This document shows positions 4,573-52,239 of a stretch of DNA of 64,000 bases, piece after piece. This DNA is from Oscillospiraceae bacterium. Its GTDB lineage: Bacteria > Bacillota > Clostridia > Oscillospirales > Oscillospiraceae. Made by a program: the position numbers and the translations under genes. The stretch spans positions 1 to 64,000 of the forward strand of contig SVLZ01000004.1 of the NCBI GenBank assembly GCA_015067665.1, in the 5' to 3' direction. Positions within the stretch are counted from its first letter, which is position 1. Each line of letters begins with the position of its first letter. Below the pieces are notes generated by a model. That model saw nothing but the letters and a program-made list of their open reading frames with translations, made no database searches and was not told the DNA's origin.

Positions 4573-4957
4573 ATTACAATGCCTCCTGTAATTGTTTTTC
4601 TATTGTTAATAATATCATGCAAAGGGAAAATGTCAATGGGAAGATAATAGGGGCAGAAATGCTTACATTTGGAAAATATGGGACAAAACGACCAATTTTA
4701 TAATGTAAAACCAGCGGAAAATAGATGTTATTGATAAAAAATATATAGGAATACGGAAAATGCATTTTAGAAAATATGGTAATTTGAGCAATGAAAATGT
4801 AAATACGAACAATTCCAAAGGCAGAGGGTTTATGGTAAAATTACAATAGAACCAAAATAAGCAAAAGAAATACAAGTGTTTTTATGGGAATATAGCAAAA
4901 ATGCTGATATTGCGTATATGCCTTTGCATATAAGAAATGGATTTTGGAGGATATGCT

Positions 4958-6022: not shown

Positions 6023-6032
6023 TCCGAGGTGT

Positions 6033-8014: not shown

Positions 8015-8029
8015 GGGAGGGGAGAGAAA

Positions 8030-8932
8030 ATGCTTAAGAAACAGCGAAAACGGATAGAGCTTTTTGATGTAGTAAATACCGGTCTTGTGGTATTCATTAC
8101 GATTTTGTTTTTATATCCGTTATATTTCTGCGTTGTCGCTTCCTTTTCGGCTCCCAGCGAGGTCATGGCAGGCAATACGATTTTCTGGTTTAAGGGCTTC
8201 AATTTTGAAAGCTATAAATATGCATTGCAGCAAGAACAGCTGTGGGTAGGTTATCGCAACACCATTATTTATACGTTTCTCGGTACACTGTACAGTTTGA
8301 TCATGACGATTCCGACGGCCTATGCGATGTCTAAGCGGGACTTGCCGTTGCGTAGAGGGGTTATGTGGCTGTACCTGCTTACTATGTATTTTGGTGGCGG
8401 CATGATTCCTACCTATTTCTTGATCAAGAACTTAGGCCTGCTGGACAACCCGTTGGTTATGATTGTTGGAACGGGCTGCTCTGCATTTCACCTGATCATT
8501 ACCAGAAACTATTTTACCAACAGCATCCCGGGGGATCTTTACGAAGCGGCAGAGATCGACGGTGCGAACGAATGGTTTTGCTTCAGTAAGATCGCAATGC
8601 CGCTGGCAAAGCCCATCATCGCGGTGGTGGCTGTGCAATGTGCCGTCGGCAAATGGAATAGTTACTTTAATGCATTGCTATACATTCGATCCGATGAGTA
8701 TAAGCCTTTGCAGCTTGTTCTGCGTGAAATGCTGATCACCAGTAAGGTTTCTACCGGCGATGTGGAAATCCTGGATCCGGATATGTTAGCGCAGATTATG
8801 GAGCGAATGCTCTTGGCAGAAGGTATGCAATATGCAGTGATCTTTATCGCCAGCGCACCGCTGCTGATCGTATTCCCGTTTATTCAGAAGTACTTTGTAC
8901 AGGGCACACTGGTTGGCTCTGTTAAAGGATAA
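8030..8932 (+). CDS. Carbohydrate ABC transporter permease (LplC/YtcP type)
   Basis: YEAAEIDGANEWFCFSKIAMPLAKP EAA loop; C-terminal FPFIQKYFVQGTLVGSVKG typical of the family. Confidence 0.9.
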   Translation: MLKKQRKRIELFDVVNTGLVVFITILFLYPLYFCVVASFSAPSEVMAGNTIFWFKGFNFESYKYALQQEQLWVGYRNTIIYTFLGTLYSLIMTIPTAYAMSKRDLPLRRGVMWLYLLTMYFGGGMIPTYFLIKNLGLLDNPLVMIVGTGCSAFHLIITRNYFTNSIPGDLYEAAEIDGANEWFCFSKIAMPLAKPIIAVVAVQCAVGKWNSYFNALLYIRSDEYKPLQLVLREMLITSKVSTGDVEILDPDMLAQIMERMLLAEGMQYAVIFIASAPLLIVFPFIQKYFVQGTLVGSVKG

Positions 8933-8952
8933 ATTAGTTTAGGAGGAACATT

Positions 8953-10698: not shown

Positions 10699-10735
10699 TT
10701 CGCCAAAATGAAACATTCCAAAAGGAGGAAGCCCT

Positions 10736-12316
10736 ATGCAATTTAGAAAGCGGTTGGCATTTTTCCTGGCATTTGTTCTGATGATTTGCAACCTGTGCGG
10801 GTGTCTGCCCGCACAGGAACCCACATTGGACTTCAAGGTGGAGGATGTCCGTGTGCCGGTATTTGAACCCTATGTCCCTTCTGAAGATGAGGACAACCAT
10901 ATTATGATGGGAGCTGCGGTAGGTTCCTGGACGCGCGACATTGTAAATGATTATTCCTATGGCATTCGTTGTTCCTTCGATATGCGAGAGAGCACAAAAT
11001 GGAATCCGCAGGCAAATCAGGGTTATGTCGGAGATCCCGGCGTGGTATACCTATTAGATGGCTACTACGATGTGGACAGCCTGCGTATGAAATTTATCGG
11101 TACATATTATTTTGATTTGTTGGGCAGTGATAACGGTGTAGATTATACGCTTCTAAAGTCTGTCACCAAGGAGAATGCAGCTGAGTTTTATGATGAAGAG
11201 AGCCGCTGCACGCTTGAAAACCTGGAGGCAAAGCATATTTCCTATATCCGCATTATGTTCAAGGGAGCCGATAAGAATAATCCCTTTGTCAATTTCCACG
11301 AGCTCAGCTTCGAGGGTACATACCTTGCTCCAGGCCCGGTCTTTATTCCTGAGGAAGAAGATCCCAACAAGCTGCCGGATACTTTGATCCAATCTTATTT
11401 TCTGCATGGCACCTGGACCAGGGATCTGTCCACGGATGGCAGCTACGGTCCTGATAAGGCCTATGACAACAATGTTTTCAGCTTCTGGAATCCGCTGGCG
11501 AATGTAGGATTTGCTGACGAACCCGGCATTATTTTCTCTTTGAAGGCGAAAACAAATATTGGCAAGCTGGAATTTATTTTTGGCGGCGACAAGCATTATT
11601 TTGATGTATATGTAAGCCAAAACGGTGAAGATTACACAGAAATTGCTAAGATCAGCTACCTGAATGAAGAAAAGGCATACACGGTAAATGCCAATGGTGA
11701 CCTTGTCTGCACTTTGGATGGAATAAATCTGGCAGATGTGACATATGTGAAGGTCATCTTTACCGGACGCGCCAGCGGTACCCGGTATGTGAACTTCAAG
11801 GAAGCAGTCGTCAGCGAGGAAATTACGGAAGGTGTGGATACTTCCTGGATGATCCCTGACCTGTCAGATGTAGAGGTCAAGGCAACCGTGGAGGCCTATG
11901 AGTTTACTTACAACGGTGCCCCGAGCACAGATGCTTATCATTCCGGACTCACCAGCGACCCGAGAAATATTTATGACGGCAACCTCGGCTCCATGTGGAA
12001 TCCTGCTTTCAAGACACCCTTTGACACCTATCAGCCCGGTCTCGGCCTCCACCTGGATAACTATTATGATCTGACAAAGATCGTCTTTACCTTTGGCAAG
12101 AATACGAGCTATTTCAAGGTTTTGGTGAGCTCCGATAATCAGACCTTCACGGAAATGGCTTCTGTAACAGAGGATTCCCAGTATGACGCCGATCGGCAAG
12201 TCGTTCTGGACGGCCTGAGCGCAGAAAATGTTAAGTATGTACGGATCGTCTTCACCGGCGGTGCCTCCTGGGGTACGCTGAATGAGATGGAGATCTACGG
12301 TACATTGGCAAAATAG
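10736..12316 (+). CDS. Lipoprotein with three F5/8 type C (discoidin)-like repeats
   Basis: Lipobox (CNLCGC); three repeats of the pattern (S..WNP...Y.FDVYVS.....YTELAK......V.L.......YVKIIFTG....VNF.E). Confidence 0.75.
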   Translation: MQFRKRLAFFLAFVLMICNLCGCLPAQEPTLDFKVEDVRVPVFEPYVPSEDEDNHIMMGAAVGSWTRDIVNDYSYGIRCSFDMRESTKWNPQANQGYVGDPGVVYLLDGYYDVDSLRMKFIGTYYFDLLGSDNGVDYTLLKSVTKENAAEFYDEESRCTLENLEAKHISYIRIMFKGADKNNPFVNFHELSFEGTYLAPGPVFIPEEEDPNKLPDTLIQSYFLHGTWTRDLSTDGSYGPDKAYDNNVFSFWNPLANVGFADEPGIIFSLKAKTNIGKLEFIFGGDKHYFDVYVSQNGEDYTEIAKISYLNEEKAYTVNANGDLVCTLDGINLADVTYVKVIFTGRASGTRYVNFKEAVVSEEITEGVDTSWMIPDLSDVEVKATVEAYEFTYNGAPSTDAYHSGLTSDPRNIYDGNLGSMWNPAFKTPFDTYQPGLGLHLDNYYDLTKIVFTFGKNTSYFKVLVSSDNQTFTEMASVTEDSQYDADRQVVLDGLSAENVKYVRIVFTGGASWGTLNEMEIYGTLAK

Positions 12317-12381
12317 TCCTGAAATGCAGTAATTTAGTCGCAAAAATAACTCTGTTATTTATTAATAAGGAGGAAAAAGTT

Positions 12382-14076
12382 ATGAAAAAAGCATTAACCT
12401 TAATCGCGATTCTCTGTATGGCAGCATTGCTGTTTGTCGGCTGTAACTTACTTCCGACTACCCCTACAGAACCCAGTACACCCACTGAACCCACTGTTGA
12501 TCCCACTGATCCCCCTGTCGATCCCACTGATCCCCCTGTCGATCCTACTGATCCCACCGATCCTCCTCACACCCATACTCCGGGTGAAGACGATGGCGAC
12601 TGCACCACAGATATTCTCTGCACAGAGTGCGGTGAAGTAGCTGTCCCCGGTGCAGAGAATCATACCCCCGCAGCCGATGACGGTGATTGCACTACCGACA
12701 TTACCTGCACTGTTTGCGGCAAGGTAACCACCGAAGGTGCTGAGGCACATACTCCCGCAGCCGATGATGGTGATTGCACTACCGATATTACCTGTACCGT
12801 TTGTGGCAAGGTAACCACCGAAGGTGCTGAGGGACATACGCCCAATGCAGACGACGGTGACTGCACCACTGCGATTACCTGCTCCGTCTGCGGCAAGGAG
12901 ACTACCGCTGCCAAGGATCACACGCCCAATGCAGACGACGGTGACTGTACTACTGCAATTACCTGCTCCGTCTGTGGTAAGGAAACCACTCCTGCTGCTA
13001 CGGGACATACACCTAATGCGGACGACGGCAATTGTACCACTGCAATTACCTGCTCCGTTTGCGGCAAGGTGACTGCCGAAGGCGCTGCTTCCCATAGCTT
13101 TGGCACCAACGAGCCTGTCTGCACCGTCTGTGGCACCGCAAACCCCGACTATGTGCCTCCTGTGAAGATTGTTGATTTCAAGCTTTCTGCTGAATGGGTC
13201 GACAGCAAGATCACTTGGCAGAGTGTTCACCCGACCAAGAGCTTTGACGGAGATCCTGCAACCCGTTGGAATCCGCAGGTAAAGCCCGGTTACGCCGGTG
13301 AGCCCTCCATTGAATATATGCTCAACAGAGCGGCTGATATTAACAAGATCACAGTAACTGTGTCGAGCACCACAAAGTACTACTTTGATGTTTACACCAG
13401 CACCGATAATGGCGCGACCTACACACTTTTGGCGAAGATCTGCACAGCCAATGAAGCAAATGCCTATAGCGGCGCTGTCTGCACGCTGGATGGCCTGAAG
13501 CTGGAGGGAGTAACCAATGTTAAGCTTCTTCTGACCGGCGGCGGCAGTGAGTATGTTAACCTTTACGAGGTAACCGTCAGCGAAGAGGGCAGCGAAGGTC
13601 TCGACAATTCCTGGATGATCCCCGAGGAGCCTAAGGAGCCGGTAAAGGCAACTGTTTCTGTTCATGAGTATATTTCCAACGGCGTTGCAGGCACCGACGG
13701 TTTTTCTGCTGTTGGTTCTGCCAATCCTGCCTATGACGGCAGTACTACAAGCAAGTGGAATCCCTGCCTCAAGAATTATACCTCCGATACTGGCATCATC
13801 TTCCATCTGGACAAGAAGTATGACCTGACAAAGCTGGTGCTGACCTTCAGTAATCCGCATTTCTATGATATCTATGTGAGCTCCGATCACGAAACCTACA
13901 CGGAGCTCGCCAAGATAACGAGCGAGACCCAATATGATGAAACAGGGGCCGTTTGCACTCTGGACGGACTGGATGCAGCGGATATCCAGTATGTGAAGAT
14001 TATCTTCACGGGCAGAGCACCCAGCAACAGCCTGTGGATCAACTTCTTTGAGATCGAGATCTACGGCACCGTCTAA
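12382..14076 (+). CDS. Lipoprotein with Pro/Thr/Asp-rich linker, tandem Cys-pair repeats and two discoidin-like domains
   Basis: Lipobox (LLFVGC); (PTEP/VDPTDPP) linker; repeats of HTPxADDGDCTTxITCxVCGK; two C-terminal discoidin-like domains. Confidence 0.75.
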   Translation: MKKALTLIAILCMAALLFVGCNLLPTTPTEPSTPTEPTVDPTDPPVDPTDPPVDPTDPTDPPHTHTPGEDDGDCTTDILCTECGEVAVPGAENHTPAADDGDCTTDITCTVCGKVTTEGAEAHTPAADDGDCTTDITCTVCGKVTTEGAEGHTPNADDGDCTTAITCSVCGKETTAAKDHTPNADDGDCTTAITCSVCGKETTPAATGHTPNADDGNCTTAITCSVCGKVTAEGAASHSFGTNEPVCTVCGTANPDYVPPVKIVDFKLSAEWVDSKITWQSVHPTKSFDGDPATRWNPQVKPGYAGEPSIEYMLNRAADINKITVTVSSTTKYYFDVYTSTDNGATYTLLAKICTANEANAYSGAVCTLDGLKLEGVTNVKLLLTGGGSEYVNLYEVTVSEEGSEGLDNSWMIPEEPKEPVKATVSVHEYISNGVAGTDGFSAVGSANPAYDGSTTSKWNPCLKNYTSDTGIIFHLDKKYDLTKLVLTFSNPHFYDIYVSSDHETYTELAKITSETQYDETGAVCTLDGLDAADIQYVKIIFTGRAPSNSLWINFFEIEIYGTV

Positions 14077-14102
14077 TTCTTTCTTCTAAAAGAGGTGCAA
14101 TT

Positions 14103-16022
14103 ATGATTAAAAGAATTTTAGCGGCATGTCTGTTGCTTTGCCTTTTGGCAAGCTTGACTGTTGGTTGCGTAAAGGAAGAAGCACCCCGTGTAGAGTCCTC
14201 AGTCAATACGGATGCAGCAGATATGAGTGCTACCAATAATACTACCGGCTTGCTGGCTGGAACAGATGATTTGGGCCGTGTGGTGGATTTGGTTACAGGC
14301 AATGATGAGAGCAAGGATGTTGGTATTTTCTACCTAACATGGCTGGGCACTTACGATGCTGGCAGTCTTCACGATGTAAGTAAAATTTTGGAAAAGGATC
14401 CCGATGCGGCTTCTGATCCGATTCGTTGGCTGCAGGCTGGCGGCGGTGCTCCCGGTAACACACATTGGTGGGGCGAATCCCTGTTTGGATACTATTTCTC
14501 TAATGACCGTTGGGTCATTGAACGGGATGTTCAGATGCTGACCGATGCCGGTATCGATTTTCTGATGCTGGACTACAGTAACGGTGTCACCTATCCGGAG
14601 CAATGGGATATCCTGCTGGAAACACTGGATAAGTTCTACCGTCAGGGCTTCGAGGTTCCTAAGCTTACCTTTGTTATCAAGCTGAACAACAATACCTGCG
14701 TGGACTATCTGTATGAGAACTACTATATGGGTAAACCTGAATATGACCATTTGTGGTATAAACCCGACGGAAAGCCCCTTCTTGTGTGCAACAGCTTGTC
14801 TCAGACTATGGAGCCGGAGTACTACAAGTACTTTAATTTCCGGTATGCACAGTGGCCCAAGGAAACACCTATGAAGGTGGACGGACTGGCTTGGCTGGAT
14901 GAAGGCACCTGGACGGAGGATGGCAAGAATGCGATCTTTGGCGGCGTTGATGGCCTCAAAACCATTATGACCGTTCAGGTCGCAGACCATCGCGGTACGG
15001 TTGCTTTCAGTAGTAATGCCTTCTACGGAGATGAGACCAACCACGGACGAAGCTGGCACGACGGTGCGCCGGATTATTCGGAAAACGCATATGTTTACGG
15101 CTACAATATTGGTGAGCAGTACGAGTATGCGCTCCAGTGCAACCCGGATATTGTGTTCATCACCGGCTGGAACGAATGGGTAGCGACTCGCCAGCGCGTG
15201 TGGAACGGTCTGGAGGAAACAGAGCCTGTTATTCTTGTTGATACAGCGAATATTGAGAGCAGCCGTGACATAATGCCCATGAAGGGCGGTTATGGCGATA
15301 ACTACTACCTGCAGATGATGGATTTTATCCGTCAGTATAAGGGCGCGCCTACGATCAATATGGCGCTCAATACTGCGGCAGAAAGCAAGCCTATTACGAT
15401 GGATATGGCTGCCGGTATGAATCAGTGGAACGCTGTTGGCGGTTACTATCTGGACTACATCCGTGAGATTGGCAATCGTAAGGGCTTGGGCTACGGCGGT
15501 CAGATCTACCGTGACGAAACAGGTCGCAACGATATCTACAAGATGAAGGTTGCAAATGACAGCGAAAACCTGTATGCTTATGTACAGACAATGGATATTA
15601 TTCAGGGTCTGGACGGCGAGCACTGCCTGAGTATGTTTATCAGCACCGGCAACGAAAATAACGAAGCTTGGTGCGGCTACGACTTTGTCATCGGCCGTCA
15701 GGCTGCAACGAAAGACGGTCTTGTGATCGAAAAGCGGACTGCTGACGGCTGGGAAGTTGTGGGATATGCCAAGTATAGTGTTGCGCTTAACGAGCTGCAG
15801 TTTGCGATTCCGCTGGAGACCCTCGGCCTTTCTGCAGAGGATGTTTCCATTCAGTTTAAGTTTGCGGACAACTATCAGGGCGAGGATGATATCTTCTCCT
15901 TCTATCTCAACGGCGACGCAGCACCCTACGGCAGAATGAACTATGTTTATGAGAGCAAGGGCGCAGATGCCATCGAAAAGTTTGAGATAAACCCCAATAA
16001 GGCAACCCCGACTGCGAAATAA
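14103..16022 (+). CDS. Lipoprotein glycoside hydrolase, GH99-like/GH71-like, with C-terminal CBM9/DOMON-like domain
   Basis: Lipobox (LTVGC); ERDVQMLTDAGIDFLMLDYSNG and IVFITGWNEWVATRQR as in GH99-like proteins; C-terminal IYKMKVANDSENLYAYVQT. Confidence 0.6.
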   Translation: MIKRILAACLLLCLLASLTVGCVKEEAPRVESSVNTDAADMSATNNTTGLLAGTDDLGRVVDLVTGNDESKDVGIFYLTWLGTYDAGSLHDVSKILEKDPDAASDPIRWLQAGGGAPGNTHWWGESLFGYYFSNDRWVIERDVQMLTDAGIDFLMLDYSNGVTYPEQWDILLETLDKFYRQGFEVPKLTFVIKLNNNTCVDYLYENYYMGKPEYDHLWYKPDGKPLLVCNSLSQTMEPEYYKYFNFRYAQWPKETPMKVDGLAWLDEGTWTEDGKNAIFGGVDGLKTIMTVQVADHRGTVAFSSNAFYGDETNHGRSWHDGAPDYSENAYVYGYNIGEQYEYALQCNPDIVFITGWNEWVATRQRVWNGLEETEPVILVDTANIESSRDIMPMKGGYGDNYYLQMMDFIRQYKGAPTINMALNTAAESKPITMDMAAGMNQWNAVGGYYLDYIREIGNRKGLGYGGQIYRDETGRNDIYKMKVANDSENLYAYVQTMDIIQGLDGEHCLSMFISTGNENNEAWCGYDFVIGRQAATKDGLVIEKRTADGWEVVGYAKYSVALNELQFAIPLETLGLSAEDVSIQFKFADNYQGEDDIFSFYLNGDAAPYGRMNYVYESKGADAIEKFEINPNKATPTAK

Positions 16023-16026
16023 TTCC

Positions 16027-16064
16027 AAAACGGCACCAATACAAAATTGTATTGGTGCCGTTTG
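16027..16064 (+). terminator. Stem-loop terminator at the end of the GH43-to-GH99-like operon
   Basis: acggcaccaatacaa-at-ttgtattggtgccgt perfect stem followed by ttgt. Confidence 0.7.
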
Positions 16065-16161
16065 TAAAACGAAAAGCTTTGGACACAAAATTGTGTGGTT
16101 TTTTTCTGCGAAGAACAGGAGAAAACAACACTGCCATATTTATTTCCTTTTTTGGTGATGC

Positions 16162-16167
16162 TATAAT
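16162..16167 (+). promoter_or_regulatory. Candidate -10 box for the corrinoid/methyltransferase operon
   Basis: tgatgcTATAATag 29 nt upstream of ATG 16196; no strong -35 hexamer recognised. Confidence 0.4.
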
Positions 16168-16195: not shown

Positions 16196-17314
16196 ATGAC
16201 GAACATTGAACGCGCAATGAATATTTTGCACTATCGAGAAGTAGACAGACTGCCCGCGGTGCATTTTGGCTATTGGCCGGAATTGCTGACGGAATGGGCA
16301 CAGCAAGGCAAGATCCCACAGGAACTGGCTGTTGGCAACTGGGACGGCAGTCCCAAGGATCAGGAGCTGGACAAGCTCATTGGCTGGGATTTTAATTGGT
16401 ACAGCACTAAGGGCAGCAATAACGGCCTATATCCTTGCTTTGAAAAGAAAGTATTAGAAACATTTCCTGACGGAACGCAAAGAGTGCAAAGCAATCTGGG
16501 CCTTATTGAACGCATAAAGCCCGGTGTGACTTCCATCCCTTCTGAGGATGACTATTTACTCAAGGATAGAGAGGCCTTTGAAACACTCTATCGCCCGAAA
16601 ATGCAATTTACTCCGGAGCGTGTGAATCTGGATTACTATAAAAGCTTTAATGAGACCCGGCCTAAGGACAGACCTGTCGGTCTGTGCCTCGGAAGTGTCT
16701 TGGGACAGATCCGGGATATGGTTTCTGTGGTTGGTCTTAGTTATCTTATGTACGATGATGACGAGGATCTGCTGGCGGATATTATCGATACATATGCAGA
16801 AATGCAGTATCAGTGCGTAAAAACCATTTTGGAAACCGGTGCGAAGTTTGACTTCGCCCATTATTGGGAGGATATTTGTTTTAAGAACGGTCCGCTGATC
16901 TCTCCCGATAAATTTGAGGAGCTGTGCGCCAAGCACTATAAAAAGAGAAATGACTTGTGCCATCAGTACGGAATTGATATAATTTCTTTAGACTGCGATG
17001 GTGTAACGGAAAAACTGCTGCCGATCTGGTTCGAAAACGGTGTCAATACTATGTTCCCCATCGAGATCGGTGTTTGGGGCGATCAATTCGAGCCGGCACG
17101 GAAAAAGTACGGAAACGGTATGCTGGGTGTGGGTGCAATGGATAAGACAGCGCTGCGGAAGGATAAGGCGGCTGTAGATGCAGAGATAGAACGAATAAAG
17201 CGCCTCACAGCAATGGGCGGCTTTATTCCTTGTCCCGACCACCGGCTGATGCCCGGAACGAAATTTGAGCTTGTGCAGTACTATGCTGAGCAAATCAAGA
17301 ATATCCGGCTTTGA
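16196..17314 (+). CDS. URO-D-like family protein, candidate substrate-specific corrinoid methyltransferase
   Basis: MTNIERAMNILHYREVDRLPAVHFGYWPE; SLDCDGVTEKLLPIWFENGVNTMFPIE; GGFIPCPDHRLMPG; located with corrinoid genes. Confidence 0.72.
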   Translation: MTNIERAMNILHYREVDRLPAVHFGYWPELLTEWAQQGKIPQELAVGNWDGSPKDQELDKLIGWDFNWYSTKGSNNGLYPCFEKKVLETFPDGTQRVQSNLGLIERIKPGVTSIPSEDDYLLKDREAFETLYRPKMQFTPERVNLDYYKSFNETRPKDRPVGLCLGSVLGQIRDMVSVVGLSYLMYDDDEDLLADIIDTYAEMQYQCVKTILETGAKFDFAHYWEDICFKNGPLISPDKFEELCAKHYKKRNDLCHQYGIDIISLDCDGVTEKLLPIWFENGVNTMFPIEIGVWGDQFEPARKKYGNGMLGVGAMDKTALRKDKAAVDAEIERIKRLTAMGGFIPCPDHRLMPGTKFELVQYYAEQIKNIRL

Positions 17315-17351
17315 GTTTTCATTTGGGTACATAAGAGGGGGGGCACCCCAT

Positions 17352-18869
17352 ATGCGCGACTTCCCGGAAGAAAATTTTATTACACAAATTACAACTACAT
17401 ATGAAGATATCTATAATCCTGACTTGCCCTTTTCGCAGCTATATGTATGCGATGCGGTGCAGCTCAGCGTTGTGGTGGACGGTTGCGGAATCCACAAGGT
17501 CCTCAATGAAGCGACGGAGTGCCACGCGGGAGATATGTATATCATAGGCAGCGGTGTCCATCACGGCTATTTTGCAAAAAGTAAGGATGAAAAGCCTACG
17601 GTCTATAGCATTCGCTTTTGTCCCGCACAGCTTTTTGGAAAACAGTGGGCAGACCCGGACAGTACGCATTTTTGCTACGGTGTGTTTCCCGATCGTGTGC
17701 CGGTATCCTATGCGCTGCTCAATTCCAATGCAATGCGTACATTTTTGGAATCCTTCAAGGCCATAGGGGAAGAGCTGACGCAAAAGGATATGCATTGGCA
17801 AGCAGCAGCGATTTCTCAATTAAAGCTAATGCTTATTTCCGTTGCCAGATATATCAATATGGCGGATACAACGGCAAATGACCACTCTGAGGAATGGATA
17901 ACGGTATCTGCGGCGATGCGGCTGATTATGGAGCGCTGCAGCGACAGCAATATGACACTGGAGTCCATCGCATCTGCGCTTTATGTCAGTCGGTCTCATC
18001 TGAGCAGAATGTTTCCAAAGGTGACGGGAGAATCCTTTATGGAGTATGTGCGGAAAACAAGGATATCCTTGGCTTGTCGCCTGCTGAGTACCACTGCGCT
18101 GACAAATGAGCAGATTGTAGAAAAATGCGGACTGAAAGACGTTCCCTCTTTTTACCGGGGTTTTAAGACCTATATGGGGATGACCCCTTATCAGTACAGA
18201 ATGTCGCAGCAAGCCGACGGTGACAACAGCGCGATAGGCATATACCTGCAGATTTCTGAGAGCTTGCAAAGAGGAAAAGTCAAGCAGGTAGAAGAGCTGG
18301 TGCAAACGGCTATTGCGCAGGGTTGCTTAGCCACGGAAATTCTCGATGAAGGACTTATGACCGGAATGAATGCCGTCGGTGAGAAGTTTAAGAATAATGA
18401 GGTCTATGTCCCGGAGGTGCTGGTAGCCGCCAGATGTATGAATGCCGGTGTACAGCTCCTAAAACCGCTATTGGTAGCAGACGGCACGAAGGCAGCCGGT
18501 AAGGTCTGCATCGGCACGGTGCAGGGAGATCTCCACGACATCGGTAAAAACATCGTAAAGCTTATGATGGAAGGAAAAGGCTTGGAGGTCGTGGATCTGG
18601 GCACGGATGTGGCACCGGAAGTCTTTATCCGTGCCGCCATCGAGGAAAAATGTCGGGTGATCTGCTGCTCCGCGCTTTTGACGACTACAATGGGTGTGAT
18701 CGGAGATGTGGTAAAGGCGGCAGATACCGCCGGGATCCGCCCAAAAGTAAAAATAATGATCGGCGGCGCACCGATAACCCAGGATTTCTGCGATCAAATA
18801 GGGGCGGATGTGTACACCTCCGATGCTGCCAGTGCAGCAGATGCGGCAGTGGCACTTTGTCAACAATAA
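17352..18869 (+). CDS. AraC-type regulator fused to a C-terminal MtaC/MtbC-type corrinoid-binding domain
   Basis: Cupin plus AraC HTH (MTLESIASALYVSRSHLSRMFPKVTGESFMEYVRKTRISLACRLL) continuing in frame into GKVCIGTVQGDLHDIGKNIVKLMMEGKGLEVVDLG (B12 motif). Confidence 0.85.
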   Translation: MRDFPEENFITQITTTYEDIYNPDLPFSQLYVCDAVQLSVVVDGCGIHKVLNEATECHAGDMYIIGSGVHHGYFAKSKDEKPTVYSIRFCPAQLFGKQWADPDSTHFCYGVFPDRVPVSYALLNSNAMRTFLESFKAIGEELTQKDMHWQAAAISQLKLMLISVARYINMADTTANDHSEEWITVSAAMRLIMERCSDSNMTLESIASALYVSRSHLSRMFPKVTGESFMEYVRKTRISLACRLLSTTALTNEQIVEKCGLKDVPSFYRGFKTYMGMTPYQYRMSQQADGDNSAIGIYLQISESLQRGKVKQVEELVQTAIAQGCLATEILDEGLMTGMNAVGEKFKNNEVYVPEVLVAARCMNAGVQLLKPLLVADGTKAAGKVCIGTVQGDLHDIGKNIVKLMMEGKGLEVVDLGTDVAPEVFIRAAIEEKCRVICCSALLTTTMGVIGDVVKAADTAGIRPKVKIMIGGAPITQDFCDQIGADVYTSDAASAADAAVALCQQ

Positions 18870-18898
18870 AGAATAAATTCATAAAGGAGAAAAGCGTT

Positions 18899-19531
18899 AT
18901 GCGTATTTATATGGAAATTTCTGAGAACCTGCAGAAGGGTAAGAATAAGATCGTCAAAGAGCTGGTGCAGCAAGCCATCGATCAAGGCTGTCCTGCCGCT
19001 GAGATCCTCAACGATGCACTGATGGCAGGCATGAATATTATCGGTGAAAAGTTTAAGAACAACGAGGTGTATGTCCCGGAGGTGCTGGTAGCCGCCAGAT
19101 GTATGAATTCCGGTGTGCAGCTTCTAAAGCCTCTTTTGGTGGCAGACGGTGTGCAGGCGACCGGCAAGGTGTGCATCGGCACGGTGCAGGGCGACCTTCA
19201 CGACATCGGCAAGAACATCGTAAAGCTTATGATGGAAGGTAAAGGTCTTGAGGTGGTGGATCTTGGCACAGATGTTGCCCCTGAAGCCTTTGTACAGGCA
19301 GCCATCGAGCATGGCTGTCAGGTGATTTGCTGCTCTGCGCTGCTGACCACTACTATGGATGTCATGGCAGAGGTCGTTAAGGCGGCAGATGCTGCCGGTA
19401 TCCGACCCGGTGTAAAGATCATGGTAGGTGGCGCACCGATCACACAGGATTTCTGTAATCAGATTGGCGCGGATGTCTACACCTCCGACGCTGCCAGCGC
19501 AGCGGACGCGGCAGTGGCCCTTTGTCAGTAA
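18899..19531 (+). CDS. Corrinoid protein of a methyltransferase system (MtaC/MtbC-like)
   Basis: 210 aa; GDLHDIGKNIV lower-axial-ligand motif, CSALLTTT, GGAPIT; start ATG 18899 after aaaggag. Confidence 0.9.
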   Translation: MRIYMEISENLQKGKNKIVKELVQQAIDQGCPAAEILNDALMAGMNIIGEKFKNNEVYVPEVLVAARCMNSGVQLLKPLLVADGVQATGKVCIGTVQGDLHDIGKNIVKLMMEGKGLEVVDLGTDVAPEAFVQAAIEHGCQVICCSALLTTTMDVMAEVVKAADAAGIRPGVKIMVGGAPITQDFCNQIGADVYTSDAASAADAAVALCQ

Positions 19532-19532
19532 T

Positions 19533-20063
19533 ATGGAAAAGTATTTTAGTCATCCCGATATTTTTGAATGTAAGGTGATCCCGGCCAACGACATTCCCTT
19601 TGAGCAGTCTGTGGCAGATGCCTGCAAGTCAAACCAGTGCGGTAAGTACGGTACTTGCTGGACCTGCCCGCCCGGTGCAGGGCAGTTTCAGGAGCTGGAA
19701 AAGAAAATTAAGACCTATGAAACGGCGGTGGTCTTTACCTGCAAGTATGACCTGGAGGATCCTTTCGATTTTGAAGGTATGATCGACGGTCAGCAGAAAA
19801 CCATGCAGGTGCTCCGCGACATTATGGATGCTCTGCAGGCAGACGGAAAGAAATTCTTGGCGCTGGGGTGCGAGGGCTGCAATCTGTGCAAGAAATGCAC
19901 CTATCCCGATGCGCCTTGTCGCTACCCGGAAAAGGCGGTTGTTTCTGTGGAGGCCTGCGGCATCCATGTGGTAAACCTTTCTAAAAATATTGGGATCAAG
20001 TATAATAACGGTGTGAATACCGTCACCTACTTTTGTGTTGTTTTGTTTTCGGAGGCGCTATGA
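19533..20063 (+). CDS. DUF2284 family Cys-rich putative metal-binding protein
   Basis: CGKYGTCWTCPPG...LGCEGCNLCKKCTYPDAPCRYPEKAVVSVEACGI. Confidence 0.8.
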   Translation: MEKYFSHPDIFECKVIPANDIPFEQSVADACKSNQCGKYGTCWTCPPGAGQFQELEKKIKTYETAVVFTCKYDLEDPFDFEGMIDGQQKTMQVLRDIMDALQADGKKFLALGCEGCNLCKKCTYPDAPCRYPEKAVVSVEACGIHVVNLSKNIGIKYNNGVNTVTYFCVVLFSEAL

Positions 20064-21049
20064 AAAAAATCACAAAAGCATTATTACAGAACAAAAATAG
20101 AACGGTACCGATCTTGACTTTCCCCTCTGCGCAGCTTTTGGGGATCCGTGTTAAGGAACTGATCGGCTCTGCCGAAATGCAGGCGAAGGGTATGGAAGCA
20201 ATTTATAAGCGTTGTCCCATTGGTGCGGCGCTGAATATGATGGATCTTTCCGTAGAAGCAGAAGCTTTTGGCGCAAAAATACGCATCTATGAGGATGAGA
20301 TCCCTGCTGTTGAAAGTGGCATCATTGATGACATCTGCGATGCAGAGGACATCGCCGTGCCCCAAATAGGCGCAGGCAGAACGGCTATCTACATCGACGG
20401 CATTCGCAAGGCAAAGGAAAGAATTACGGATATTCCTGTATTTTGCGGTGTGATTGGTCCCTACTCATTGGCTGGCAGGCTTTTTGATATGACAGAGCTG
20501 ATGATGGAGTGCTACGATAGCCCGGATGAAGTGAAGATTTTGTTGGAAAAATGTTCGGAGTTTATTATTGCCTATATTAAGGCTTATAGGGAAGCCGGCG
20601 CAGACGGTGTGGTAATGGCAGAGCCGGCAGCAGGCTTGCTCTCTCCTGCACTTGCCGAGGAATTTTCTACCTGCTATGTGCAGAAGATCATCGAGGCGGT
20701 GAATAGCCCGGATTTTGTGTTCTGCTATCATAACTGCGGCAGTGCCGCCAGTGATATGATGGGTGCATTTGCCACTTTGGATGCAGATATTTTCCATTTC
20801 GGCAATGTGGTGGATATTGAAAAGGCCTGCCGGAGTTTACCGAAGGACAAGGTAATTATGGGTAATGTTGACCCGGTGCTGTTTCGAACCGGCACACCGG
20901 AAACGGTGGCTGGGGACACAAAGCGGGCGTATAACCTATGCAATCAGTATGAAAACTTCATAATTTCCACAGGCTGCGATGTCCCTGCGGCATCTTCTTG
21001 GGAAAATATCGACGCTTATTTCAGTAAGGTAACAGAGCTTTATGCATAA
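20060..21049 (+). CDS. MtaA/CmuA-like URO-D methyltransferase
   Basis: YHNCGSAASDM (HxC) and STGCDVP near the C-terminus: HxC...C zinc-type ligand set. Confidence 0.78.
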   Translation: MKKITKALLQNKNRTVPILTFPSAQLLGIRVKELIGSAEMQAKGMEAIYKRCPIGAALNMMDLSVEAEAFGAKIRIYEDEIPAVESGIIDDICDAEDIAVPQIGAGRTAIYIDGIRKAKERITDIPVFCGVIGPYSLAGRLFDMTELMMECYDSPDEVKILLEKCSEFIIAYIKAYREAGADGVVMAEPAAGLLSPALAEEFSTCYVQKIIEAVNSPDFVFCYHNCGSAASDMMGAFATLDADIFHFGNVVDIEKACRSLPKDKVIMGNVDPVLFRTGTPETVAGDTKRAYNLCNQYENFIISTGCDVPAASSWENIDAYFSKVTELYA

Positions 21050-22424
21050 GGTAATCATTGACGGCAAGGCTTTTTGTGCTGCCGACGGACAAAAATTATC
21101 CACACTGCTTAGGGGCACAGAGTTTTCTGTGCCCCATCCGTGCGGTGGCAGGGGTGTCTGCAAAAAGTGTACCGTTGTCGTAAACGGAAAGCCGGAACTT
21201 GCCTGTCAATACGAAATTCATTCGGATATTACGGTACATATCCCCGCACATACGGAAATACTGTCGGAAACCGGTGCTGTAGAAACGGGAAAGATGACAG
21301 AAAATATGTGCTTTGCCTTGGATGTTGGAACGACTACACTGGCACTTGCGCTGGTTTCGCTGGATCGGGGAGAAATTGTAAAGGTGCTGACCCGCACCAA
21401 CCCTCAGACAGCTTTTGGTGCGGATGTAATGAGCCGCATTGATTATTGCGGTAAAAACGGCGTGGAGAAGCTCCAAAATGTGGTTGCGAAAAGAGTCAGC
21501 GAGATGATTGCAGATTTTGGACTGCCAATCATCGATATGATGTATGTGTCGGGAAATGCCACGATGCTCCATCTGCTTTTCGGTGTTGATCCGTCATCTA
21601 TGGGGAAAGCACCTTATACACCTGCTTTTTTGGAAAGCAAGTGTATCCAAGCGGAGGTTCTTGGCATAACTGGGGTAAAGGGTCTTATTTCTCTGCCGTC
21701 TATTTCTGCCTTTGTAGGCGCGGATCTGGTGGCGGGACTGAACTATGTAGGAATGCCCCAAAAGGGAAAATATAATTTACTCATCGATCTGGGAACGAAC
21801 GCAGAAATTGTGCTTTATTCCCGGGATGAAGCTGTTTGTACTGCCGCTGCAGCAGGTCCTTGCTTTGAGGGCGCAAACATCCGATGCGGTATGGGTGCGG
21901 AAGATGGTGCCATTTGGGCATATGAAAAAGGTGAAATAAAAACCATCGGCAATGTTCCTGCAAAGGGAATTTGCGGCACAGGGCTTATTGATATTATGGC
22001 CTCGCTTTTGAAAAACGAAACGATCGAAGAAAGTGGCTATATGGAAGAAGATTTCTATTTAACAGAAGAGATCTATCTCTGTCAAGCAGATGTGCGGCAG
22101 TTCCAAGTGGCAAAATCTGCGGTATGCTCTGCAGTGCTGACACTAATGGAGAAATTGGGCGTTGGGTTTGATGAGTTGGAAGAAGTTTATCTCTCCGGTG
22201 GATTCTCCGGGAAGATCAATATCCCAAACGCAGGAAAGGTTGGCCTGCTTCCGGCGGAGTTGATGAAAAAATGCATTGCCGTGAAAAACAGCAGCTTGCT
22301 GGGAACGGCAAAATTTGCATATGAAAAGAATGATCTGTCTGCTTATTTAGGCGCAGAATATGTGGATCTTTCTGCAGACCCTCATTTTTCAGACAGATTT
22401 GTGGATAATATGCTTTTTGAATAA
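21042..22424 (+). CDS. ASKHA-domain corrinoid activation protein (2Fe-2S ferredoxin N-domain, DUF4445-type)
   Basis: PHPCGGRGVCKKCTVVVNGKPELAC 2Fe-2S motif; FALDVGTTTLALAL; NLLIDLGTNAEIVL; GTGLIDIMASLL; YLSGGFSGKIN. Confidence 0.85.
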   Translation: MHKVIIDGKAFCAADGQKLSTLLRGTEFSVPHPCGGRGVCKKCTVVVNGKPELACQYEIHSDITVHIPAHTEILSETGAVETGKMTENMCFALDVGTTTLALALVSLDRGEIVKVLTRTNPQTAFGADVMSRIDYCGKNGVEKLQNVVAKRVSEMIADFGLPIIDMMYVSGNATMLHLLFGVDPSSMGKAPYTPAFLESKCIQAEVLGITGVKGLISLPSISAFVGADLVAGLNYVGMPQKGKYNLLIDLGTNAEIVLYSRDEAVCTAAAAGPCFEGANIRCGMGAEDGAIWAYEKGEIKTIGNVPAKGICGTGLIDIMASLLKNETIEESGYMEEDFYLTEEIYLCQADVRQFQVAKSAVCSAVLTLMEKLGVGFDELEEVYLSGGFSGKINIPNAGKVGLLPAELMKKCIAVKNSSLLGTAKFAYEKNDLSAYLGAEYVDLSADPHFSDRFVDNMLFE

Positions 22425-22441
22425 AGCAAGGAGGAAAGGGT

Positions 22442-24988
22442 ATGGAAAAGGCAAGCTTATTGCAGGCACTTTGGGATTGTTTGGAAAACAAAGAAAAGAA
22501 AGACCGGATTTTCCCTTTTCTTTGGGTGCATGGCGAACCGCATCACCGTCTGCAGGAAGAATTGGATGCCATTTATAACTGCGGCTTGCGTGCGTTTTGC
22601 GTAGAAAGCCGCCCCCATCCGTATTTTTGTGAGGATGCCTGGTGGGAGGACTTGGGCTTTATTTTGCAGTATGCAAAGGCACGGGATATGCAGGTGTGGG
22701 TGCTGGATGATAAGCATTTTCCTACCGGCTATGCCAATGCCGCTATTGAGAAAAAATACCCTCACCTACGCAGAAAGTGCGTGCGGGTGGCTTGCATTGA
22801 TGTGGCAGGTCCTATGCGGGACGGCTGTTGCTTGTTTCCACAGATGGACGAGGATGAAACAGTTCTGTCTGTATGCGCCTACCGCCGCACAGGAGAAGGG
22901 GAGATTGTTGATGGCAACAGTGGTATGCTGCTGACGGATATTCGGGACGGTCTTGTATTTTGGGATGTGCCGGAGGGTGTGTGGCGCGTGTATTTTGTTA
23001 TAAATACCCATCGCGGTCCTGCCCACTTTAGAAACTACATCGATATGTGCGATGTGGACTCCTGCCGCGTTATGGTAGACGAGATCTATCAGCCCCACTA
23101 TGACCATTTTTCGGAATACTTCGGCAATACGTTCCGGGGCTTTTTCTCTGATGAGCCTTGCTTTGCCAATAATATCGGCTCTTTTGTAGATAAGCTGGGA
23201 ACACCGACTCTGAATATTCCTTGGCGAGAGGATATGGTGACCCTTTTGGCGCAGGAATGCGGCATTACCGAAGAGGAAGCAATCTGCCGTCTGCCGGCAC
23301 TTTGGCATACTGTTACAGAGCATACGGCTGTTCTTCGCCTTGGATATATGAATATTATCACGAAGCTGTATCGGGATAATTTCAGCAATATGCTGGGTTT
23401 ATGGTGTGAAAAGCGCGGCATAGAGTATATCGGTCACGTTATCGAGGATGGCGGCGCGCATATGCGCCTTGGCTATGGCAGCGGTCATTTCTTCCGGGCA
23501 CTGGAAGGACAGCATATGTCCGGTATGGACATTGTTCTGAACCAAATTGCGCCCGGCATTACCAAGATGGTACATTCTTATGCCAGTGCCTCCGGTAAGC
23601 AGGCAAGCCCTGACAGCTATGCGTACACCATTCCCAAGCTTGCCACTTCTGCTGCCCATTTGGACGAAAAGAAGCAGGGCAGAGTAATGTGCGAGCTATA
23701 CGGCGCCTTTGGCTGGGCAGAAGGTGTGCCGGAGATGAAATATTTAACGGATTGTATGCTTAGTCAAGGTATCAATCACTTAGTTCCCCACGCATTTTCC
23801 GATAAAGTGGAAGACCCGGACTGCCCGCCCCATTTCTTTAACGGTGGGAAAAATCCCCAGTACCCGGTATTCGGTAAGCTAATGGACTACACGGCAAAGC
23901 ATTTCCATATCTTAAATGCCGGCGTGCCACAGATCCCCGTGGCGGTCTACTATAACGCAGAGAGTGAATGGTGCGGCGGTGAGGTAGATCCGCTGGAGCG
24001 CGTTGCAAGCATTTTGGGACGAAATCATACAGATTTTGATTTTGTACCGATGGATGCGCTTATGACGGCCATGGAAGAAAAGGGAAAATTGCAGGTCGGC
24101 CCTTGCGCTTATCGCGCACTGATTTTGCCCTACAGTCAGGTGATCCCTGCCGCCTTGGCGCAGAAGATAGAAGCATTGACTGCTTCCGGTGTAGCTGTCC
24201 TGTACTTGGACGGCAAGCCGGAGCGGACAGAAACGGGAACTGCGCCTTCGTTATCGGGAAAAGTAGTAGCAAAGGCGCATCTTCCTGCGCTTATCAAAGA
24301 GGAGAAATGGGCAGCGGTGGAAACCACTGTGGCAGAACCGGATCTGCGGATACTTCATCGCGCAGATGGAGATACACAGGTGTATTTCTTCTTTAATGCC
24401 AGCTTGGACAGAACGATAGACACTTGTGTTGCGATTCAGTCCTCCGCGCCGGCAGTTGCTTATGATGCTTGGCTAAATACTTGCTGTCCAGTGGAAGAGA
24501 ATAAGCTGACACTGGCGCCGGGACAGGCAATTCTTTGGTGTGTTACGGAAGAAAAGCTTCCCGTTACAGACACGCCTGCGCAATGGGAGAATTTGCCGGT
24601 AGAAAAGGCGACTGTCACCCTCCGTCAACAGGAAGAGACAGTTTTGCAGGAAACCTGTGATGGGATGCCTAATAAGAATTATGCAAAAGATTATCCTGCC
24701 TTTAGCGGTGTCATAGATTACGACTTTGTATGCAGTGCAGAGTCGGCAAAATGGCTGAAGCTGGAGCAGGTAGGGGAGACGGCACGATTGTGGGTCAACG
24801 GCATCGACTGCGGATGTGCAGTTCGTGCGCCTTATGTTTATTATGTGGAAAACGCTTGGAAAGCTGGGGAGAATAAAATCCGTATTGAGGTGGCTGTCAA
24901 CCAAGGCTACGGCAGACGGGATCGTTTCTCCACAAATACAATTCTGCCTCCGATGGGCCTGTTTGGTAGAATTGAAATAAGCATTTAA
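22442..24988 (+). CDS. Large glycoside hydrolase, GH106-like (putative alpha-L-rhamnosidase family)
   Basis: 848 aa; AKARDMQVWVLDDKHFPTGYANAAI, FFSDEP, C-terminal sugar-binding-like domain (WVNGIDCGCAVRAPYVYYVE). Confidence 0.55.
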   Translation: MEKASLLQALWDCLENKEKKDRIFPFLWVHGEPHHRLQEELDAIYNCGLRAFCVESRPHPYFCEDAWWEDLGFILQYAKARDMQVWVLDDKHFPTGYANAAIEKKYPHLRRKCVRVACIDVAGPMRDGCCLFPQMDEDETVLSVCAYRRTGEGEIVDGNSGMLLTDIRDGLVFWDVPEGVWRVYFVINTHRGPAHFRNYIDMCDVDSCRVMVDEIYQPHYDHFSEYFGNTFRGFFSDEPCFANNIGSFVDKLGTPTLNIPWREDMVTLLAQECGITEEEAICRLPALWHTVTEHTAVLRLGYMNIITKLYRDNFSNMLGLWCEKRGIEYIGHVIEDGGAHMRLGYGSGHFFRALEGQHMSGMDIVLNQIAPGITKMVHSYASASGKQASPDSYAYTIPKLATSAAHLDEKKQGRVMCELYGAFGWAEGVPEMKYLTDCMLSQGINHLVPHAFSDKVEDPDCPPHFFNGGKNPQYPVFGKLMDYTAKHFHILNAGVPQIPVAVYYNAESEWCGGEVDPLERVASILGRNHTDFDFVPMDALMTAMEEKGKLQVGPCAYRALILPYSQVIPAALAQKIEALTASGVAVLYLDGKPERTETGTAPSLSGKVVAKAHLPALIKEEKWAAVETTVAEPDLRILHRADGDTQVYFFFNASLDRTIDTCVAIQSSAPAVAYDAWLNTCCPVEENKLTLAPGQAILWCVTEEKLPVTDTPAQWENLPVEKATVTLRQQEETVLQETCDGMPNKNYAKDYPAFSGVIDYDFVCSAESAKWLKLEQVGETARLWVNGIDCGCAVRAPYVYYVENAWKAGENKIRIEVAVNQGYGRRDRFSTNTILPPMGLFGRIEISI

Positions 24989-25006
24989 TACGAAAGAGGA
25001 AAAACT

Positions 25007-27001
25007 ATGAACATTATTGACTTTACACCGTCTAAATGGATTTGGACGAAAGACAATCTTACAAAAGACCAAAAGGTAGTTTTTCGAAAGAAGTTCTCTG
25101 TTTCTTTGCAACCGGAAAAGGCAGAAGCCTATATCGCCTGCGATACCAAGTTTTGGCTGTGGCTAAACGGAAAAATGGTAGTGTTTGAGGGCGGTGTGTT
25201 CCGGGAGAGCAGACCGGGCTGCGGCTATGCAGAAAAGGTGGATTTGGCACCCTATCTGCAAGAAGGGGAGAATACCCTCGCGGTGCTGGTTTGGTTTTAT
25301 GGAAACGGTGGCAGAAATAACACAAATTCCGGGCAGGCCGGCTTTATCTTCAAGTGTGATGCGTTGTCACTTTATTCCGACGAAGGATTTTTGGCTGTCA
25401 ACCATCCTGCCTATGTGCCTACCGATGCGCCACATCCTGCCCACTTATTTGGTGGCGAGAATATCGGTTTTGATGCCAATTTGGATTTCGGTGACTTTAC
25501 GGCATCGGAGTTTGACGATTCTGCTTTTGACCCTGCATCTGTTTTCCCCGATCAGGTGTGGGGCGACAGCATAGAATCCGAATTGCCTCTTTTGAAAGTA
25601 TTTCCTAAGACAGAACTGGCTTTTCGCCTTACAGAAAATGGAGCAACAGCAAAGCTTCCACACGCAATGGCGCTGACCGTCAGCTTTGAACTGGAAGCCC
25701 AGGGCGGTGAGAAGATCGATGTCCGAACGGATCGGTATGCCGTTCCCGGCGGCCCCGGAGATGAGGCTTATTTCTTCAACTGTCACCGGATCGAATATAC
25801 CTGCAAGCCGGGGGAAAATATCTTTGCGTGCTTGATGTACTTATACGGTGAAGAGGTGCTTGTAACCTTCCCGGAAACGGTAAAGCTTCAAAAGCTTTCT
25901 TTCACCGAAAGCGGCTACAACACAAAGCAGGTGGGTAGTTTTGTCACAGAGGATCCTCTCTTTAACCGCCTGATGGAAAAGTCTATCCGCACGCTCTATG
26001 TATGTATGCGTAATAACTTTATGGATTGCCCCGATAGAGAGCGCGGTCAGTGGATTGGCGACGTATCTGTGCAAGTGCCGCAGGTGTTCTTCGTATTTGA
26101 CGACGAAGCTAAAAAGCTGCTGAAAAAGGCGGTCAGTGACTTTATCCATCTGCGCAAGGGCGATGTGCTGGTAGGCAATGTGCCGGGACAGCACGCAAGT
26201 GAACTGCCGGGACAAAGCTTGGTTGCCATCAGCGAATATGGCTTGATCGGTGAATACTACCATTATTCCAAAGACCCAGAGATCCCGGAACTGGTTTTGG
26301 AGCCTTCGGTAAATTACCTGAAGCTGTGGGAGCTGGATGAGGAAGGGTTGCTCATTCCCCGGAAGGGCAACTGGTACTGGTTTGACCACCGCTGGAATGT
26401 GGATGCGCCAGTATTGGAAAACTGTATGTATGTGGGTGCGGCAAAATATGCTCTGCAAATGGCTGAGATCTGTGGAGATCACCGCTTTGACGATTTCCTG
26501 AACGAACGGATCACGATACTTTCCGAGAATATTGAAAAGAAATTCTGGAAGGGGAAGTATTATGCATCCGGCAGCTTTGTGGACGACAGGGCCAATGCCA
26601 TTGCGGTGCTGAGCGGTGTATGTCCCAAGGAGCGCTATGGGCTTGTGATGAAGGTGCTGATGACGGCATTTAATTCGACACCCTATTTTGAGCGATTTGT
26701 GCTGACGGCACTGTGCGAAATGGGCTATATTAAGGATGCCTACCGCCGTATGATGGCAAGGTATTATCCACTGATCACCAATGAAAACTCTACCCTTTGG
26801 GAGGATTTCTATCTGCTGGGCACACGGAATCACGCGTGGTCCGGTGGACCTTTGGAAATTGCCTACAAGTATTTCTTAGGCTTGCGGACGGAGGATGGGT
26901 TCAAGTCCTATACCGTTTCTCCTGTTTCGGGTATCTTCAAGGAGATGCACGTGACCTTCCCGGCAGGCGGCGAAATGATCGAAAAGCATATTGTTGAATG
27001 A
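25007..27001 (+). CDS. GH78-like alpha-L-rhamnosidase family protein
   Basis: NFMDCPDRERGQWIGDV motif with (alpha/alpha)6-type sequence; N-terminal jelly-roll AYIACDTKFWLWLNGK. Confidence 0.7.
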   Translation: MNIIDFTPSKWIWTKDNLTKDQKVVFRKKFSVSLQPEKAEAYIACDTKFWLWLNGKMVVFEGGVFRESRPGCGYAEKVDLAPYLQEGENTLAVLVWFYGNGGRNNTNSGQAGFIFKCDALSLYSDEGFLAVNHPAYVPTDAPHPAHLFGGENIGFDANLDFGDFTASEFDDSAFDPASVFPDQVWGDSIESELPLLKVFPKTELAFRLTENGATAKLPHAMALTVSFELEAQGGEKIDVRTDRYAVPGGPGDEAYFFNCHRIEYTCKPGENIFACLMYLYGEEVLVTFPETVKLQKLSFTESGYNTKQVGSFVTEDPLFNRLMEKSIRTLYVCMRNNFMDCPDRERGQWIGDVSVQVPQVFFVFDDEAKKLLKKAVSDFIHLRKGDVLVGNVPGQHASELPGQSLVAISEYGLIGEYYHYSKDPEIPELVLEPSVNYLKLWELDEEGLLIPRKGNWYWFDHRWNVDAPVLENCMYVGAAKYALQMAEICGDHRFDDFLNERITILSENIEKKFWKGKYYASGSFVDDRANAIAVLSGVCPKERYGLVMKVLMTAFNSTPYFERFVLTALCEMGYIKDAYRRMMARYYPLITNENSTLWEDFYLLGTRNHAWSGGPLEIAYKYFLGLRTEDGFKSYTVSPVSGIFKEMHVTFPAGGEMIEKHIVE

Positions 27002-27002
27002 G

Positions 27003-27038
27003 GAAAGGGCGTGTTGCAAAGCAACACGCTCTCCTTTG
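27003..27038 (+). terminator. Stem-loop terminator closing the methyltransferase/rhamnosidase operon
   Basis: gaaagggcgtgttgc-aaa-gcaacacgctctccttt followed by gtttt. Confidence 0.65.
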
Positions 27039-51297: not shown

Positions 51298-51334
51298 AAA
51301 AAGGATGTGCCGTTTGGCACATCCTTTTTTTCTT
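51296..51334. terminator. Bidirectional terminator between convergent genes
   Basis: aaaaaaaggatgtgcc-gttt-ggcacatcctttttttc. Confidence 0.9.
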
Positions 51335-52212: not shown

Positions 52213-52239
52213 GATCTATTACACCTCATCTTAAAATGA

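Follow-up and report, generated by a model that had tools for sequence, protein, structure and literature searches.

The stretch of DNA analysed here, referred to as the window, comprises 64,000 nucleotides from an Oscillospiraceae bacterium (assembly GCA_015067665.1, contig SVLZ01000004.1, positions 1 to 64,000). At positions 16196–27001 it carries an operon which represents a new and widespread form of the corrinoid methyl-transfer systems of the URO-D type, with an unusual fusion of carrier and regulator, and which is likely for sugar methyl ethers, the substrate being the main uncertainty. The initial annotation had described eight plus-strand genes, coding for a URO-D methyltransferase, an AraC–corrinoid fusion, a corrinoid protein, a DUF2284 protein, an MtaA-like URO-D protein, a reductive activator and two glycoside hydrolases (GH) resembling families GH106 and GH78. 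A check of the open reading frames (ORFs) together with Pfam and NCBIfam matches clearly confirmed all eight, their strand, their order and their family names. The likely starts of three genes were corrected to ATG 17352 (AraC fusion), 18899 (corrinoid protein) and 20060 (MtaA-like protein). Consecutive genes are separated by 1–31 nt or overlap. The terminator proposed at the end of the operon was also recovered, as the best candidate of a terminator scan with a 12-bp stem (27006–27032, plus strand) and T-rich DNA after it. At the other end, a near-perfect hairpin (16028–16063, plus strand), not flagged by the scanner, is the probable 3' end of an upstream transcript. It is followed by an extended -10 element TGcTATAAT (16159–16167, plus strand), the inferred promoter of the methyltransferase operon, and directly after it by a GGAGGA ribosome site and ATG 16196. 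Hairpin and -10 element indicate that the methyltransferase and rhamnosidase-like genes probably form a transcription unit of their own, separate from the preceding run of GH43, CE15, ABC transporter and GH99-like genes (4937–16022). No cobalamin riboswitch was seen, and the window is without any Rfam match.

The first gene (16196–17314, plus strand) encodes the candidate methyltransferase MT1, assigned to the URO-D superfamily of corrinoid methyltransferases from a Pfam URO-D match of 33 bits, a structural model and a tree. Neither an NCBIfam match nor a meaningful PDB match by sequence was obtained. The AlphaFold (AF2) model (pLDDT 93) has MtaA (PDB 4ay7) as its nearest PDB fold, followed by uroporphyrinogen decarboxylases. 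Among the proteins compared, a set of URO-D proteins without reference sequences of MtvB, OdmB, VdmB, MtoB and CmuA, MT1 is in a clade of its own, far from MtaA. Its two groups of relatives, A and B, fell together with 100/100 support, apart from the MtaA-like proteins and from a URO-D protein encoded on contig C45 of the same genome. Residues D266, C267, D268, G269, C346, P347, D348 and H349 are invariant across 35 sequences, and in a profile alignment (probability 19%) the D266-x-D268 ... D348-H349 stretch is placed over the zinc ligands (H-x-C and C) of the MtaA-like proteins. According to a published rule on the metal site, His-Cys-Cys denotes sulfur or selenium substrates and carboxylates denote oxygen substrates (PMC10418091). 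By this rule, the Asp/His pattern of MT1 would make it an O-type enzyme.

The second gene (17352–18869, plus strand) joins an AraC regulator and a complete corrinoid protein in one ORF (HTH_18, B12-binding_2 and B12-binding), with the DLHDIG motif intact. It is followed by the gene of a free corrinoid protein (18899–19531, plus strand; Pfam and NCBIfam matches), the predicted methyl carrier, which has the DxHxxG motif and to which the corrinoid part of the fusion is 83% identical. Fusions with an intact D-x-HDIGKN were found at 23 distinct loci besides the window, including L035, L037, L052, L075, L085, L123 and L140. The fusion is the sole carrier in 13 operons having at least two core partners. 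A corrinoid protein of the MT1-operon type was present in every MT1 genome checked (19 + 22). MetH-size frames aside, no corrinoid-protein homologue other than the fusion was found in genomes G285 (96% complete), G171 (96%), G089 (98%), G182, G192 and G212. G171 showed the fusion only, without even a MetH-size frame. Since the fusion is thus the sole carrier besides MetH in several near-complete genomes, the simplest reading is that it would act as both catalyst and regulator, and a self-sensing methyl carrier is possible. A literature search found no paper describing an AraC–corrinoid fusion. Such a fusion would offer a novel means to sense the state of a B12 enzyme.

Three further core proteins are encoded downstream. 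The Cys-rich DUF2284 protein (19533–20063, plus strand; Pfam 156 bits) is a conserved partner which perhaps supplies electrons to the activator. The latter (21042–22424, plus strand) belongs to the ATP-dependent reductive activators of the RACo family, with N-terminal 2Fe-2S cysteines, RACo_middle and RACo_C_ter domains and PDB matches 3zyy and 4c1n. Between them lies the MtaA-like URO-D protein (20060–21049, plus strand; Pfam URO-D 182 bits, NCBIfam MtaA-like), the proposed acceptor enzyme, with a His-x-Cys ... Cys pattern. In proteins of this type HNC is conserved, as is Cys307 in the aligned set, and following the same rule the 20060 protein would be an S-type (His-Cys-Cys) methyltransferase (PMC10418091). 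Like the methylcorrinoid:thiol methyltransferases MtaA, MtbA and CmuA it keeps H-x-C...C, and it matches the MtaA and CmuA models with 148 and 124 bits, but these scores are under the curated cut-offs of 244 and 235. To our knowledge coenzyme M is not a cofactor in such hosts, so that the acceptor should be another thiol.

The initial annotation had seen a candidate for every component of a complete methyl-transfer set. The set is indeed present, and in 62 of 92 loci MT1 stands beside at least two of the MtaA-like, RACo and DUF2284 genes in an operon; many of the other loci are cut by contig ends. What changes is the role of the 20060 protein, whose S-type site makes an ordinary tetrahydrofolate-dependent second methyltransferase (MT2) unlikely. 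No MtrH/MtvA-type (pterin-binding) tetrahydrofolate MT2 was found in these MT1 operons. The MtaA-like gene is present in 41 of the 56 operons that have activator and carrier. Inside operons L130, L147 and L129, all without an MtaA-like gene, a homocysteine S-methyltransferase gene (PF02574) was found. L129, whose activator is cut, and L130 count as one independent case and L147 as the other. The MtaA-like and homocysteine methyltransferase genes never overlap and look mutually exclusive (p ~0.02 when L129 and L130 are counted apart). The occurrence of PF02574 in operons lacking the MtaA-like gene suggests homocysteine or another thiol as methyl acceptor. Taken together, the O-type MT1, its S-type partner, the missing classical MT2 and the PF02574 operons indicate that the methyl group probably passes from a sugar oxygen to the corrinoid and on to a thiol.

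Relatives of MT1 were detected in 50 of 394 genomes of the order. Group A, which includes the window, is 71–80% identical; group B follows after a gap at 44–53%, with weaker paralogues below. Group A is scattered over families, and none of the sampled members of the genus and family to which the window belongs had it, which points to horizontal transfer of the MT1 module as a functional unit. The MT1 orthologues move together with the genes of the corrinoid protein, DUF2284, RACo and, mostly, the MtaA-like protein. Across genomes of 85,462 species 206 MT1 relatives were obtained; the best 80 of these 206 showed best-segment identities of 74–84% and came nearly all from Clostridia of the ruminant or other herbivore gut, plus the isolate Eisenbergiella porci, whose cultured strain WCA-389-WT-23B carries an MT1 of 78% identity at L111. 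Two conserved URO-D-like families (~354 and ~408 aa) without Pfam match also accompany MT1 operons (L041:1753–4090; relatives at L040, L047, L052, L074 and L076).

The last two genes of the operon encode a GH106-like protein (22442–24988, plus strand), which starts after a 17-nt gap, and a GH78-like alpha-L-rhamnosidase (25007–27001, plus strand) after a gap of 18 nt. Their proposed place within the methyltransferase transcript was supported, whereas the GH43/CE15 run which had been linked to them probably belongs to a separate transcript, judging from the hairpin and the extended -10 element. The Glyco_hydro_106 match is weak, with 34.5 bits, and covers part of the domain, and a significant PDB match was obtained in the C-terminal domain only. 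The GH78-like protein (Bac_rhamnosid6H, 67 bits against a cut-off of 24.5) has the six-hairpin domain and keeps the catalytic motifs DCP-RERxxWxGD and TLWE when aligned with 2okx. In the upstream run, all on the plus strand, a GH43 gene (4937–6022; Pfam 55 bits), whose product has exo-beta-1,3-galactanases as closest solved relatives (PDB 6eug/7byv/3vsf/5flw), is followed by a CE15 glucuronoyl-esterase-like gene with a GHSRLGK motif (6033–7094; Pfam, and PDB matches OtCE15A and MZ0003). Then come a sugar-type ABC importer with two permeases and a lipoprotein binding protein (7091–10698; Pfam, lipobox), and two F5/8C-domain lipoproteins with a GH99-like lipoprotein (10736–16022; Pfam, lipobox), for which the GH99 match is below cut-off and no PDB match was found. 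No signal peptide was recognisable by eye in the GH43, CE15, GH106 and GH78 proteins, so that these would act in the same compartment as the corrinoid proteins. Type II arabinogalactan bears 4-O-methyl-glucuronate and rhamnose (PMC8377490). Combined with the nearest relatives of the GH43 protein, this makes 4-O-methyl-glucuronate from arabinogalactan the preferred candidate for the methyl donor and O-methyl deoxyhexoses the second choice.

The expectation that the corrinoid genes recur beside glycoside hydrolases was examined with neighbours counted as codirectional genes in operon-like chains. Several of the single-locus names below come from tallied Pfam families matched to recognised sequences, and are less sure than those of singly scanned loci. 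In L129 (11116–17442) and L130, GH95 and a cellulase-like GH stand between MT1 and the corrinoid protein. GH106 is found on both sides in L123 and adjoins MT1 in L141; L046 has GH29 and DUF4838, and L044 a GH78-like gene. In L052, rhaA and rhaD lie directly downstream, in L042 uxaA and uxaB directly upstream, and L147 has heparinase-like and KDPG aldolase/kinase neighbours. GPH-type sugar transporters stand beside the operons of L077, L084, L091, L103 and L106, and GH2 (L112), GH3 (L146) and GH10 (L109) are further neighbours. A group B MT1 (47% identical) is the next gene after rhaB-rhaA-rhaD, at a 22-nt gap (L065:3581–10721; also L063 and L066); no corrinoid protein lies near MT1 in L065, and one is encoded elsewhere in that genome. 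Sugar genes thus recur in unrelated genomes, but the partners are very varied and the enrichment over the genome background is modest. Glycoside hydrolases, polysaccharide lyases (PL) and sugar-catabolic genes made up 18 of 107 neighbours (17%) and 5 of 72 random genes of the same genomes (7%; p = 0.04), the tallies being taken from the 25 top Pfam families per batch, so that counts are lower bounds for neighbours and random genes alike. A GH78 gene lay no more than 10 kb from MT1 in three of the 19 genomes, one of the three being the discovery locus; ~0.8 were expected. A strong GH enrichment had been considered and was dropped after the random-gene control in the same GH-rich genomes. Likewise, a pattern of 6-deoxyhexose release (GH78, GH106, GH29, GH95, rha) was post hoc, since uronate genes and GH2, GH3 and GH10 were seen as well. 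From the recurrence in named operons and the small overall excess, the sugar linkage is real in particular operons and modest overall.

The genome of the window is a 1.83-Mb draft, 85% complete. Two different acetyl-CoA synthase genes were found in it (L173:16817–18943 and L174:7481–9640), and the window itself carries metF and an RnfC2-like gene (51334–54812, minus strand), a methylene-tetrahydrofolate reductase cluster of the acetogen type. These genes make it probable that the host is an acetogen. A small protein within this cluster (52240–52941) is perhaps MetV. Of the 19 genomes that have close MT1 orthologues, the other 18 gave no acetyl-CoA synthase match, and MetE was matched in none of the 19. 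A second corrinoid system on contig C45 (L176:1605–4502) has the classical three-component layout, with a URO-D protein of 411 aa, a pterin-binding MT2 and a corrinoid protein. An empty genome search with PF00809 had pointed to a host without folate methyltransferase, which was overturned by this 269-aa pterin-binding protein beside the URO-D and corrinoid proteins. Pterin-binding domains in the other 18 group A genomes were found in frames of MetH size, the exceptions being G014 (second FolP-like match), G223 (274-aa frame), G086 (none) and G015 (none over cut-off).

Built on the observed gene content, gene order, conservation, metal-site residue patterns and fusion, from which we infer substrate, acceptor and regulation, the reading which we favour, with a probability of about 0.5, is that of a module for corrinoid-dependent O-demethylation which works in the cytoplasm, is joined to a locus for the use of plant glycans and takes an O-methyl sugar as substrate. 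The lipoproteins would bind glycan fragments, most likely of type II arabinogalactan, which the ABC transporter would import and from which the cytoplasmic GH43, CE15, GH106 and GH78 proteins would release end sugars. MT1 would then move the methyl group of the O-methyl sugar onto the Co(I) of either the free corrinoid protein or the AraC–corrinoid fusion, and from there the MtaA-like enzyme would hand it on to a thiol, with homocysteine or sulfide as the probable acceptor. Re-reduction of the corrinoid would fall to the RACo-type protein, perhaps assisted by DUF2284, and the AraC fusion may make transcription depend on which state the methyl carrier is in. Our proposal for the full route is a tentative one: anaerobic sugar O-demethylation in which the corrinoid would move the methyl group to a thiol (giving methionine or methanethiol) and the AraC-type carrier would report its methylation or redox state to its own promoter. 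Several observations weigh against the sugar reading. The ligands of MT1 were assigned from a low-probability profile alignment (19%) together with invariance; glycoside hydrolases alone were not significantly enriched (13 of 107 versus 5 of 72, p = 0.19); many operons are out of reach of any sugar gene and the GH families vary between loci; and some operons are without any visible acceptor enzyme. Given the probably acetogenic host and the pterin-binding MT2 elsewhere in its genome, a folate route for the methyl group is also possible.

A URO-D-fold MT1, a corrinoid protein with DxHxxG and an ATP-dependent activator were all found, as in the acetogen O-demethylases (MtvABC, Odm/Vdm) and archaeal Mto, with which the operon would also share anaerobic methyl-ether cleavage. 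In contrast to these, the window operon has no MtrH-type MT2, the host having one on contig C45, and adds an MtaA-like S-type enzyme, DUF2284, the AraC–corrinoid fusion and glycoside hydrolases; the known systems take aromatic ethers, and MT1 stands apart in the tree of the proteins compared. Removal of a sugar O-methyl group during polysaccharide use is familiar from marine porphyran degraders, in which a P450 oxidatively demethylates 6-O-methyl-galactose, requiring oxygen and releasing formaldehyde; the window system would work without oxygen and retain the methyl group. Arabinogalactan loci with a GH43 exo-beta-1,3-galactanase resemble the locus in GH43, rhamnosidases, uronate-related enzymes and importer, and we know of none with a corrinoid methyltransferase system.

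The rhamnosidases could instead free methoxylated phenolics (flavonoids, lignans or lignin-carbohydrate pieces), with MT1 demethylating an aromatic ether like MtvB or OdmB. Phenolic rhamnosides are also substrates of GH78 and GH106, CE15 targets lignin-carbohydrate esters, and a probably acetogenic host would suit this reading. Moreover, those O-demethylases of the URO-D superfamily that have been characterised use aromatic methyl ethers (PMC13222342, PMC8630106). We nevertheless regard this as rather unlikely, since the rhaA/rhaD, uxaA/uxaB, KDPG aldolase, GH95, GH29 and heparinase-like genes handle sugars or uronates and not phenolics, the operons are without an MtrH-type MT2, and BLAST found no significant similarity between MT1 and the URO-D protein of the classical system on C45. 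The modest enrichment and the 3 of 19 genomes with GH78 near MT1 would also suit an incidental linkage, in which GH-rich genomes put glycoside hydrolases beside any operon and the substrate is another small methylated compound. This appears improbable in view of the glycoside hydrolases inside operons (window, L129/L130, L123, L141) and of the monosaccharide catabolic genes adjoining others (L052, L042, L147, L065).

Pectin-type genes (rhaA, uxaA/uxaB, GH78, GH106) recur near MT1, which would be expected if methanol or the methyl-ester methyl of pectin were the substrate. The known methanol enzymes are MtaB proteins of a different family, and no pectin methylesterase was found among those window proteins that were scanned, nor in the neighbour tallies, so that this option is very improbable. 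Finally, the operon shares with the type 1 mlp clusters (Kountz and Balskus, PMC10418091) several URO-D proteins with a corrinoid protein and Ram/RACE, the lack of a classical MT2 and an MtaA-like member with His-Cys-Cys. A relative of these clusters could demethylate a methyl thioether or methyl selenide, the glycoside hydrolases being passengers. We consider this quite improbable: the Mlp proteins of type 1 clusters have the His-Cys-Cys zinc site, which here the MtaA-like protein has and MT1, the main URO-D protein and most conserved member, has not, and the neighbours are carbohydrate genes, sulfur or selenium genes being no neighbour theme except for the homocysteine methyltransferase. Type 1 clusters hold at least one Mlp2 and at least one Mlp3; the window operon holds a single MtaA-type protein.

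O-methyl sugars are common in plant food, such as 4-O-methyl-glucuronate in xylan and arabinogalactan, and 2-O-methyl-fucose and 2-O-methyl-xylose in rhamnogalacturonan II (RG-II). A literature search found no account of their O-methyl groups being removed by anaerobic gut bacteria. The operon is a concrete and widely distributed candidate for sugar O-demethylation in herbivore-gut Clostridia, and would connect the breakdown of fibre with the metabolism of C1 units and sulfur and with acetogenesis. Elsewhere in the window a further URO-D protein with an HTC...H motif (1955–3049, minus strand) is encoded in a divergent operon, where it adjoins a polysaccharide-deacetylase-like gene, DUF624 and an AraC regulator.

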